The notes beneath the pieces were generated by a model. The model had not been told where the DNA came from. It saw only the letters and a list, made by a program, of their open reading frames with translations, and did not search any database. DNA of 64,000 nt from NCBI GenBank assembly GCA_027490195.1, contig JAIXYN010000070.1, positions 1 through 64,000 on the forward strand, given 5' to 3'. This document shows positions 20,605-24,278 of this stretch, one piece after another. The position numbers were made by a program, and so were the translations under genes. The stretch comes from Verrucomicrobiaceae bacterium. GTDB taxonomy: Bacteria; Verrucomicrobiota; Verrucomicrobiia; Verrucomicrobiales; Verrucomicrobiaceae. Positions within the stretch are counted from its first letter, which is position 1. The number at the start of each line of letters is the position of its first letter.

Positions 20605-20642
20605 ACTACATTTGTAGTTGCCATTTCACGACAAATGTAGTG
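20605..20642. promoter_or_regulatory. Paired BlaI-type operator sites
   Basis: Two inverted-repeat sites lie 25-62 bp upstream of the repressor gene: ACTACATTTGTAGT at 20605-20618 (perfect dyad) and CACGACAAATGTAGTG at 20627-20642 (one mismatched pair). TACA-N4-TGTA-type dyads are the known target of BlaI/MecI repressors. Their position between gap and the repressor gene suggests autoregulation. Confidence 0.75.
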
Positions 20643-21053: not shown

Positions 21054-23924
21054 ATGAACACGCTCACACAACTCTTCGACTGGCTGCTCGCCGCCAGTCT
21101 TCGTGCGTCGCTGCTCACTCTGGCCACGTTGCTCGTTCAGGCGGCTTTAAGTCGGCACCTCACCGCCCGCATGCGCTATGCCCTCTGGCTGCCTGTGCTT
21201 ATCGTTCTGCTCATGCCTGTGCTGCCGCAAAGCCGCTGGAGCATCGAGCACGTCTTTCAAGCACCACCCCAGCCAGCACCAAGCTCTGGAGCCATCTCTC
21301 CATTGATCAAGGAGCCAAGACCGGTGGTTTTCGAGTCGGTCACCCCTATGCCCGAAACCATCCACTGGCAGCAAGTGTTCCTTCTTACTTGGCTCAGCGT
21401 CTCCGCAGGCATGCTCGTCTTCGGCAGCGCCTCCTTCATGCTCACCCTGCGCCGTTTCAAACAAGCCCGCCATCCCGTGAGTGATGAGCTTCTCAACACG
21501 CTCGCTCAAATCGCCCGCGAGATGCATTTGCGCTACGTCCCGCGGGTCTTGATCGCCTCCGCCGTCAGCAGCCCCGCTGTCACCGGTCTCATGCGTCCCA
21601 CCCTGCTGCTGCCCGCTGACTTTGACCGCGAGTTCTCGCCCGCCGAGGCACGGCTCGTACTCAAGCACGAACTCATGCATCTCAAGCGCGGCGATCTCAT
21701 GCTCAACGCCCTCATGTGCGTAATGATGGCCCTGCATTGGTTCAATCCCCTGCTATGGCTGGCTTTCTTCAAAATCCGTGCCGACCGCGAAGCGGCCTGC
21801 GATGCCCAGGTGCTCCACGATGCCCCCAATGACCGTCGCATCGAATATGGACATGCCCTCCTCAAAGTCGAAACCGCCTTCTGTCCTCGCGGCTTCAGCC
21901 TAGGCTTCGTCGGCATCTTTCAGCGCGGATCTGCATTGCGTTCCCGCATCCATTCCATTGCCACCCATCGCGCTCCACACCCCGCCATGAAAGCCATGAT
22001 CACCTTGTTCATCGTGCTCATGACCTTTTTCGGCATCACCCGCGCCCAGCAACCGAAACCCGCAGATGATGCGCAGCTCATCGCCATCGAAGTTAGAGTC
22101 GTTAAATTTAAGCAAGCCACCGACTGGAGTTTTGGCGGCAGACTGCCAGACAAAGAAACAAATGCCTTTCCTCCTGCTGTCCTGCTCTCCCCCGCAGAAC
22201 TCGCCGTTCAATTGAGGGAAATGCTTAATAACGACAGCACCACTACCATATCCTACCCCCGCATGGTCACCGTCAGTGGACACGAACTCATGGTTAAAAG
22301 CGTCGTGAACCAGCCCTACAAAGACAAGGACGGCAAAGTTAAGGAGCTTCCAATCGGACTCGTCTGTAAATTCACGCCCACTGTGAATGGCGAAAGCGTC
22401 AAACTCGACATGGATATCACCGACGCGATTTTGGTTGATCCAGCAACCGGTGCGGCGATTTCCGAGTTCAAAGGCGATTATCCCACCGTCCACACACGGA
22501 CTTATAAAGCCAGCCACGAAAGTGGCGACGGACAATCCTGTGTCATCGCCGACTGGGATGATGGTAAACCTCAAAGCAAACGTCCAGTGGTTTATATCAT
22601 CACACCCCATGTGATCGACCCGAAGAAGGCAGGTCTTCCGGCTGGTGCTAATTTAACCACGGATGCGAACATTACCGTAGAGGCGACAACTCCACCCACC
22701 ACCAAGGCCATCCAGACGAAGCTCGAAAAAATCATCTTCCCTCACATTCAATTCCAAAGCGCCACGGTGGCAGAATGCATTGAGTACCTCCGCGTCAAAG
22801 CCCTTGACCTCGACACATCTGAGTCGGCCTCGCGCGGAATCAATCTCCAATACCGACCCGGCAACCCACCGTCCAACGCCGCCATCACGCTAGATCTCAA
22901 AGACATCCCCTTGGGCGAAGCCCTGCGCTATGTCGTTGAACTGGCCAGCCTCAAAATGATCATTCAGCCATACGCCGTTCTCATCGGCCCTGCTGATGAT
23001 CCCATGTTTGCGAAATCTGCGGCTGCACCGTCTGTGCACAACTCATCCGACAAACCCGGCGAGATTGTCATTGCAGCCCCGGGCTCCAAAATCATCTTCC
23101 CCAGCGTCGAATTCCGCGATGCCACACTCACCGAATGCATCGACTTCATTCGCATCAAAGCCCGCGACCTCGACCCCGATAAAAAAGGCGTGAACGTCAT
23201 CCTCAAGCCGGGCGGGAATGAAACGGCGCGCATCACCCTATCTCTCAAGAACGTGCCTCTGTCAGAAGTCCTTCGCTACTGTGCCGAGCTAACGAACCAC
23301 AAGCTCACCTCCGACGCCCAGTCCTTTTTCCTCACTCCTGTTTCCACAGAAGTCCCGGCAAACAAAGATCAGGCTTCAAACCCTGCGACACCTCCACAAG
23401 AAAGTGCCGCCGAGGCAAAGGCGGCGGAGCTGCGCAAAGCTCGTCCGCAACAGTATGACTTCGCCAAGGCGAACCTCGGCGATGTGCTGCGTTTTATTGC
23501 CACCGATGCCGGCATCAATTTCTTTGCTCTCCCCGACGACAATCCCATCAATCAAAAGTTGGTGACCTTTAGCATCAGCAGCAGTCCTTTTGAGGTCCTT
23601 GAGACACTTTGCAGCGCGAATGGTTTGATGCTGGTGCTTGATCAGAACAAGTGGTTCATCCGCGTCACCGATGATACCACTCTGGTCACGAAAGATTATG
23701 CCCTGCCAAAAACGCAGGCCATCATCGAAACTATCCTCAAAGACATCAGCACGCTCATTGAGGGTGACGAAACCAACCCTGTTGCAGACAAACCTCAATC
23801 AAGAGTGGCCTTCAAAAAAGAGCAAAACTCAGTTTTCGTGAAAGCCACCCGTCTTCAGCACTCCTCGGTCGCCGCCTATTTCCAGGGGCTTAAAAGTTCA
23901 GCGCAGTCCGGCAACACCAAGTGA
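21054..23924 (+). CDS. BlaR1-type M56 protease fused to secretin/STN-like domains
   Basis: A 956-residue membrane protein. Residues 1-330 form a BlaR1/MecR1-like M56 peptidase with four transmembrane helices, zinc motif HELMH (205-209) and the third ligand in ADREAACD (Glu246). After the last helix (~313-329) there is no penicillin-binding domain. Instead a secretin-like region follows (~340-520: IAIEVRVVKF, TTISYPRMVT, GDGQSCVIADW). Then come three related secretin-N0/STN-like repeats at ~560-643, 680-762 and 800-871. The first two share IIFPxxxF-x6-ECIxxxRxKAxDLD. It is co-transcribed with the repressor (6 bp gap). Presumably an envelope stress or ligand sensor that cleaves or triggers cleavage of the repressor; the signal is unknown. 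Confidence 0.82.
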   Translation: MNTLTQLFDWLLAASLRASLLTLATLLVQAALSRHLTARMRYALWLPVLIVLLMPVLPQSRWSIEHVFQAPPQPAPSSGAISPLIKEPRPVVFESVTPMPETIHWQQVFLLTWLSVSAGMLVFGSASFMLTLRRFKQARHPVSDELLNTLAQIAREMHLRYVPRVLIASAVSSPAVTGLMRPTLLLPADFDREFSPAEARLVLKHELMHLKRGDLMLNALMCVMMALHWFNPLLWLAFFKIRADREAACDAQVLHDAPNDRRIEYGHALLKVETAFCPRGFSLGFVGIFQRGSALRSRIHSIATHRAPHPAMKAMITLFIVLMTFFGITRAQQPKPADDAQLIAIEVRVVKFKQATDWSFGGRLPDKETNAFPPAVLLSPAELAVQLREMLNNDSTTTISYPRMVTVSGHELMVKSVVNQPYKDKDGKVKELPIGLVCKFTPTVNGESVKLDMDITDAILVDPATGAAISEFKGDYPTVHTRTYKASHESGDGQSCVIADWDDGKPQSKRPVVYIITPHVIDPKKAGLPAGANLTTDANITVEATTPPTTKAIQTKLEKIIFPHIQFQSATVAECIEYLRVKALDLDTSESASRGINLQYRPGNPPSNAAITLDLKDIPLGEALRYVVELASLKMIIQPYAVLIGPADDPMFAKSAAAPSVHNSSDKPGEIVIAAPGSKIIFPSVEFRDATLTECIDFIRIKARDLDPDKKGVNVILKPGGNETARITLSLKNVPLSEVLRYCAELTNHKLTSDAQSFFLTPVSTEVPANKDQASNPATPPQESAAEAKAAELRKARPQQYDFAKANLGDVLRFIATDAGINFFALPDDNPINQKLVTFSISSSPFEVLETLCSANGLMLVLDQNKWFIRVTDDTTLVTKDYALPKTQAIIETILKDISTLIEGDETNPVADKPQSRVAFKKEQNSVFVKATRLQHSSVAAYFQGLKSSAQSGNTK

Positions 23925-23945: not shown

Positions 23946-24278
23946 ATGCTCGCTCTGGATGCCACGCTCATGGCATCCTCCTCAGAACTCGACCTCACCC
24001 AGCGCTTGCGCGAAAACGCCTGGATTGGCGATGCCGTTCTGGAGCTCTACGTCCGCAGCCTCATCCTGAAGCAGCAGGGCAAGGTGGATGCCGAGATGAA
24101 AACGCGTTTCACCTGCAATCAGTTCCTCTCCTGCACCGGCAATCCCACCGCCGTCGAAGCCGACATCGGCGTGATCTATCAGCGCGAAGGCCTAGAGCCT
24201 GCCTTCGCGTGGATTCGTGAAACTCTGGAGCCGCTCTTCCTCAAACAGGAAGCAAAACGCAAGCGCACTGGTAAATAA
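23946..24278 (+). CDS. Mini-RNase III-like protein
   Basis: A 110-residue protein with an RNase III fold signature: NAWIGDAVLELYVRSLIL (Asp29 of the GD pair) and TAVEADIGVIYQREGLEPAFAWI (Glu71). At the position three before the Glu it has Thr instead of Asp, as in Bacillus mini-III (MrnC). There is no double-stranded-RNA-binding domain. The part between the two motifs is shorter than in MrnC, so activity is uncertain. A second ATG at 23970 is possible. It starts 21 bp after the BlaR1-like gene and abuts the convergent FAD oxidoreductase stop. Confidence 0.65.
   Translation: MLALDATLMASSSELDLTQRLRENAWIGDAVLELYVRSLILKQQGKVDAEMKTRFTCNQFLSCTGNPTAVEADIGVIYQREGLEPAFAWIRETLEPLFLKQEAKRKRTGK

Follow-up and report, generated by a model that had tools for sequence, protein, structure and literature searches.

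A BlaR1-type membrane protease with a secretin-derived extracytoplasmic half in Verrucomicrobiaceae

Introduction

The BlaR1/BlaI relay is known for beta-lactam resistance. Here we ask what such a relay may be reading in a Verrucomicrobiaceae bacterium whose BlaR1-type receptor, encoded next to a BlaI-type repressor, carries pieces of outer-membrane secretins where a penicillin sensor would be expected. The window, by which we mean the whole stretch of 64,000 nucleotides that was analyzed, belongs to a 7 Mb assembly with Prosthecobacter and Brevifollis as its closest named relatives. In the ORF listing of the window, the receptor frame starts 6 bp after the end of blaI (Table 1), as the original prediction had stated, and a Pfam search identifies the upstream product as a BlaI/MecI repressor. 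A small RNase III-like gene (Mini-III type) follows on the same strand, 21 bp downstream of the receptor; it stays beside the receptor in close relatives, and co-transcription is possible.

Table 1. Features of the blaI-receptor locus, in window coordinates.
Feature	Position	Strand	Evidence or remark
BlaI-type operator dyad 1, ACTACATTTGTAGT	20605..20618		predicted; also found ahead of blaI in roughly 20 relatives
BlaI-type operator dyad 2, ACGACAAATGTAGT	20628..20641		predicted; 9 bp after dyad 1
blaI, Penicillinase_R (BlaI/MecI) repressor, 126 aa	20667..21047	+	PF03965 4.7e-31
Receptor gene, M56 protease and secretin-derived extracytoplasmic part	21054..23924	+	956 aa
M56 (BlaR1) membrane protease, residues 11-301	21084..21956	+	Pfam 9.8e-61; catalytic set; 8ext match
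TM4, then G-x-T-x-A (residues 327-331)	21981..22046	+	invariant; resembles signal-peptidase site
Secretin beta-domain (core), residues 339-531	22068..22646	+	pIV/GspD fold match; shortened, without secretin signature segment
STN1, residues 550-660 (about)	22701..23033	+	48% identity to own Amuc_1098-family secretin
STN2, residues 676-770	23079..23363	+	47% identity to same Amuc_1098-family secretin
N0 domain, residues 786-884	23409..23705	+	related to GspD/PilQ-like secretin, contig C50
N1-like domain, residues 885-951	23706..23906	+	matches N1 region of C50 secretin
RNase III-like gene (Mini-III type)	23946..24278	+	

Results

The protease half is a BlaR1-type enzyme

The N-terminal third had been predicted to be a BlaR1-type metalloprotease, and it is a genuine one: HELMH is present at residues 205-209 within a strong Pfam M56 match, the only PDB sequence matches of the receptor are to S. 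aureus BlaR1, and the best structural match of the model is BlaR1 8ext (residues 7-293, Z 19.0, rmsd 3.5 over 246 residues). Receptor H205-E206-H209, D214, E246, D250, Y265, R298 and F289 correspond to BlaR1 H201/E202/H205, D210, E242, D246, Y261, R294 and Phe284, and none of them varies among 12 receptors. The roles of the BlaR1 gluzincin residues, of Asp210, Tyr261 and Arg294, and of the autocleavage residue Phe284 have been described (PMC9834060). As far as sequence can tell, the M56 protease is intact. Against the NCBIfam BlaR1 equivalog the receptor scores 151 bits, under the 400-bit cut-off. Sensor fusions start right after TM4 and the invariant G-x-T-x-A; in S. aureus BlaR1 a signal-peptidase site has been determined after the last TM helix, TM4 (PMC9834060).

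The extracytoplasmic half is a permuted secretin mosaic

Residues 339-951 form a mosaic whose parts resemble two resident secretins and follow the permuted order core-STN-STN-N0-N1. BLAST against these secretins, pairwise alignments and comparison of AlphaFold models with the PDB all bore out the proposal that the sensor had been exchanged for secretin and STN modules. The core matches the folds of pIV (Z 12.6) and GspD (Z 12.3) in model-to-PDB comparison and is 34% identical, by pairwise alignment, to that of the resident 677-aa C50 secretin; alignment to that protein shows the VPxLxxIPxLGxLF-type signature segment to be absent. The STN-type fold was confirmed by comparison of the STN modules with the putative anti-sigma factor 4m0n (Z 9.0-9.4), with STN2 matching its STN-type domain at Z 9.4 and rmsd 1.7. 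Residues 786-951 are 47% identical to N0-N1 of the C50 secretin and match N0-N1 of EscC with Z 10.0, though with a high rmsd (9.8 over both domains). The gene for the C50 secretin adjoins genes for a PilT-family ATPase and prepilin-like proteins. Three N0/STN repeats had been predicted; the number stands, but the third repeat is an N0 that comes from another secretin than the first two, and behind it lies an N1-like domain that the prediction had missed.

Profile searches gave a mixed answer. NCBIfam Amuc_1098, a secretin family (NF042912), matched at 1.5e-44, in agreement with the original prediction, with a whole-protein score of 152 bits against a family cut-off of 750. Pfam did not bear it out to the same degree: Secretin matched residues 393-499 at 2.8e-4 and 21.0 bits, below the cut-off of 27.5, and STN reached 0.014 at best. 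Three relatives (L083, L085 and L086) exceed the Pfam Secretin cut-off. We conclude that neither its score, nor its signature, nor its domain order makes the receptor a secretin. Pfam and NCBIfam searches at E up to 1 and the fold comparison gave no transpeptidase match, so the predicted lack of a penicillin-binding fold holds; the C-terminal part has secretin, STN, N0 and N1-like folds, neither an unrelated beta fold nor a transpeptidase. Besides M56, Secretin and STN, Pfam found nothing in the receptor, and neither an anti-sigma N-terminus nor a TonB-dependent barrel was seen.

Two AlphaFold models underlie these comparisons. That of residues 331-956, built from 17 sequences, has a mean pLDDT of 72.6 and shows separate domains; the full-length model is weak in N0-N1 (pLDDT about 50), and the 331-956 model was therefore used there. 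Relative domain positions are unreliable in both (pTM 0.36-0.37), and we disregarded structure matches whose Z fell below about 8.

Predicted operators point to a self-regulated operon

BlaI H101-F102 aligns with the cleavage site N101-F102 of S. aureus BlaI (PMC9834060), and the P1' Phe is conserved. Dyads with at most two mismatches occur twice in the window against 0.31 expected, and the 7 Mb genome has no perfect site other than dyad 1. Roughly 20 loci of relatives show tandem dyads with the same spacing in front of blaI. Across the 26 family genomes with a perfect site, all such sites lie before blaI and an M56 gene, bar one. This exception (L119, at G019:C5:77428) stands directly before a second M56 gene, at a distance of about 110 bp, and has no adjacent blaI, which suggests control in trans.

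No operator was found at secretin or pilus genes, either in the whole genome at up to two mismatches or in a weight-matrix scan of 305 kb that included the secretin loci, in which the next-best site outside M56 promoters scored 9.7 bits against 26.7 and 24.0. The single one-mismatch site, at C20:138786, was considered as a further target and rejected, since it sits inside an ORF. We likewise dropped a pilus/secretin regulon, as genome-wide operator searches gave nothing convincing. The recognized regulon, judged from predicted sites, appears to be the receptor's own operon only.

Relatives exchange sensors around a constant protease and repressor

Matches to the receptor occurred in 68/68 family genomes searched, many of them single modules or other M56 proteins. 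Receptors of this clade, defined by an M56 domain at or above about 42% identity, are present in roughly 30 of the 68 by hand count. Their distribution is patchy, many genomes of the family holding the secretin but no receptor. Module profiles distinguish at least a dozen sensor architectures. Six of them are found among the nine genomes that share one syntenic locus (gap-blaI-receptor-RNase III-like gene), where protease and repressor are kept. Same-clade receptors in L094 (5881-8451) and L163 (4959-7754) contain SurA/PPIC rotamase modules; L163 also has LptD_N above cut-off, and L165 has TPR repeats too. Most clade modules that fall into a recognized family come from outer-membrane assembly machinery (secretin core, N0-N1, STN, SurA, LptD_N), which suggests outer-membrane assembly as the theme common to the clade's sensors.

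Several further observations concern these relatives. A recurrent beta module of about 120 aa without a Pfam match (FAVGKSAFRPGDS...GLPHITFY...FGGIYFGT) occupies residues about 537-655 of the product of L079:7052-10237, and the same FAVGKSAFRPGDS module recurs in L082, L086, L087, L089, L092, L093, L094, L163 and L164. Short LptA/OstA-like inserts in L078, L085 and L087 were set aside as weak matches with poor alignments, clear LptD_N being present in L163 alone. Two relatives encode, directly upstream of blaI and on the same strand, a protein of about 500 aa that looks exported and contains diverged STN modules (L078:9462-10967 and L080:10003-11514). The receptor at L091:5977-7233 is broken by a frame break in an Amuc_1098-type core, and its remnant continues in another frame. 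An assembly chimera is an unlikely source of the receptor we studied, as a separate assembly (L077/L137) has the same architecture at 74% identity.

A class-wide search of 384 genomes gave a few relatives in other families, for example one in G197 with 40% identity over residues 2-784, and module profiles did not find these modules in related M56 proteins outside Verrucomicrobiota. Other M56 proteins bear ankyrin, WD40-like or carboxypeptidase-regulatory domains. A Chthoniobacterales M56 protein (L173:4968-7601) has a penicillin-binding transpeptidase domain (3e-57) and is a true BlaR1-like counterpart.

Every module is under constraint

We compared the window gene with its 74% identical orthologue in L077 by the Nei-Gojobori method. 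Estimated dN/dS was 0.18 for M56, 0.24 for the core, 0.32 for STN1, 0.21 for STN2, 0.34 for N0 and 0.28 for N1, as against 0.92 for a 17-residue linker; by this measure every module is under purifying selection. One branch separates receptor N0 from secretin N0 in 94% of bootstraps. Secretin N0 is nearly unchanging and receptor N0 evolves faster, retaining over half of the residues of its near-invariant secretin counterpart. The simplest reading is that N0 was captured once, long ago, and then kept.

The C50 secretin is held by 13/13 genomes with C50-derived receptor modules and by 13/18 other receptor genomes (Fisher p = 0.058, from hand-compiled counts that ignore kinship). Receptors of genomes without this secretin use other modules only. 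We treat the link between C50-derived modules and the presence of their secretin as suggestive, a lead that we do not claim.

Secretin modules recur in other proteins of the genome

Contig C60 holds a second, only distantly related BlaI-M56 pair (L060:2170-5258) whose sensor consists of Amuc_1098-secretin pieces. A separate BlaI and a separate tandem dyad go with this M56 gene; the dyad, CCGACANNTGTCGG, is found twice at its promoter and nowhere else in the genome. Because each circuit has private operators, both look self-contained and orthogonal. On contig C81, a PknB/Stk1-like Ser/Thr kinase (L066:5008-8553) carries four Amuc_1098-type STN modules in its C-terminal part; just upstream are genes for another kinase and a sigma-factor-like protein. 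With both a second M56 protein and a kinase so equipped, secretin modules appear to be recurrent sensor parts in this genome. We also noted a 3261-aa protein with TPR and STN/Amuc_1098 modules on contig C84 (L063:7445-17230) and, on contig C64 (L061:4695-10521), two proteins composed of Amuc_1098 secretin pieces, neither of them a full secretin; the latter adjoin the cluster with the genome's Amuc_1098-family secretin.

Discussion

We favor the reading that the locus encodes an antirepressor circuit of the BlaR1/BlaI type in which the sensor reads outer-membrane assembly, and put its chance at roughly one in two. A free or misassembled periplasmic partner or subunit of a secretin or other envelope machinery would bind the sensor mosaic, for which the retained partner-binding modules of secretins (N0/STN) would serve. 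As in BlaR1, the sensor would then shift relative to the membrane and activate the protease, which would cut BlaI, by homology at H101-F102; derepression of the blaI-receptor operon would yield more receptor and repressor. On one reading, the receptor or its released periplasmic part would be the effector. Secretin periplasmic domains have been reported to bind inner-membrane partners such as GspC (PMC3169554), and STN-type domains mediate cell-surface signaling (PMC7186176, PMC11637429). That pieces related to the cell's own outer-membrane pore proteins stand in place of the antibiotic-sensing part suggests that the receptor monitors the condition of the envelope and not antibiotics. The original prediction had proposed that assembly or occupancy of an outer-membrane pore, or another envelope state, is sensed. 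An envelope or outer-membrane signal is still the best reading, given SurA and LptD_N in same-clade relatives, whereas sensing of pore assembly or occupancy in particular is conjecture; a pore-related regulon did not appear, the operator occurring at 0 secretin or pilus promoters.

The modules could instead be generic beta scaffolds, TM4 and T-x-A accepting any exported domain and the ligand being a small molecule, peptidoglycan or a surface ligand unrelated to secretins. Fast module turnover at one locus would fit this, as would the same STN modules in the kinase and in large secreted-type proteins and the variety of domains on other M56 proteins (ankyrin, WD40-like, carboxypeptidase-regulatory). 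However, the clade's modules of recognized family belong to outer-membrane machinery, and receptor N0 keeps over half of the residues of secretin N0, itself a near-invariant domain; we consider generic scaffolds possible, if somewhat unlikely. It is a good deal less probable that the receptor is itself the output, a secretin mimic that caps or competes with secretin subunits, perhaps after signal-peptidase release at T-x-A, with BlaI setting only its dose. That idea draws on the restriction of perfect operators to blaI/M56 genes in 26 genomes, on the signal-peptide-like TM4 with its invariant G-x-T-x-A and the signal-peptidase site after TM4 in S. aureus BlaR1 (PMC9834060), and on a core without the secretin signature segment, but BlaI may also bind at diverged sites, which would escape a consensus search. 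A broader combination seems doubtful to us: a Verrucomicrobiota class of self-contained circuits in which a periplasmic mimic of outer-membrane export machinery (secretin core, N0/STN, SurA, LptA/LptD_N), perhaps released by signal peptidase, would both read that machinery and act on it by competing for its partners, its dose set by a BlaI with this operon as sole target.

A standard BlaR1 that responds to beta-lactams, with a sensor different in appearance only, would agree with the M56 and BlaI homology and with a putative D-Ala-D-Ala ligase-like ORF about 4 kb away. We hold this to be very improbable: neither sequence nor fold contains a transpeptidase domain, which Pfam would detect, as it does in the distant M56 protein L173, and perfect operators were found at blaI/M56 promoters only. 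Least credible is a decaying, non-functional product of domain shuffling. Broken relatives do exist (L091, L160 and a G016 copy with stops), yet the frame here is open, dN/dS is 0.18-0.34 in all domains, and the catalytic residues and operator are invariant.

If the favored antirepressor reading is true, the BlaR1/BlaI relay is a general one-step receptor platform that takes other sensors, here pieces of the cell's own outer-membrane pores. One locus then offers a natural module-swap series, with protease, repressor and operator constant and six sensors, with which one can test how M56 receptors relay a periplasmic signal across the membrane and how the assembly of secretins and of the outer membrane is monitored in Gram-negative bacteria. 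No paper describing M56-secretin fusions was found in the PMC literature searched, a collection outside which most subscription journals lie.

Among known systems, BlaR1-BlaI and MecR1-MecI of Staphylococcus and Bacillus share with this one the membrane M56 gluzincin with all catalytic residues and the autocleavage Phe, the BlaI partner and a TACA-n-TGTA operator at the own operon. Unlike them, the receptor has secretin domains and no penicillin-binding sensor, and no beta-lactamase or PBP target was seen here. The protease-repressor half probably works like that of BlaR1; lacking a penicillin sensor, the receptor is not a BlaR1 by definition. STN1 and STN2 match the N-terminal modules of the Amuc_1098-family type IV pilus secretins (NF042912) at 47-48% identity, but the receptor has these modules only, joined to a protease. 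With GspD/PilQ-type secretins of type II secretion systems and type IV pili it shares the core beta-domain and N0-N1, whereas its order is permuted (core before N0), the signature segment is missing and M56 anchors the whole in the inner membrane. FecA/FecR-type cell-surface signaling likewise uses a small STN-fold domain (compare STN2 with 4m0n); the receptor differs in having no TonB receptor, anti-sigma or sigma part, its output being a protease and a repressor. Finally, the PASTA-domain Ser/Thr kinases (PknB/Stk1) have a counterpart in the PknB-like kinase of this genome with its four Amuc_1098-type STN modules, which differs from the receptor in being a kinase rather than a protease and in lying at another locus.
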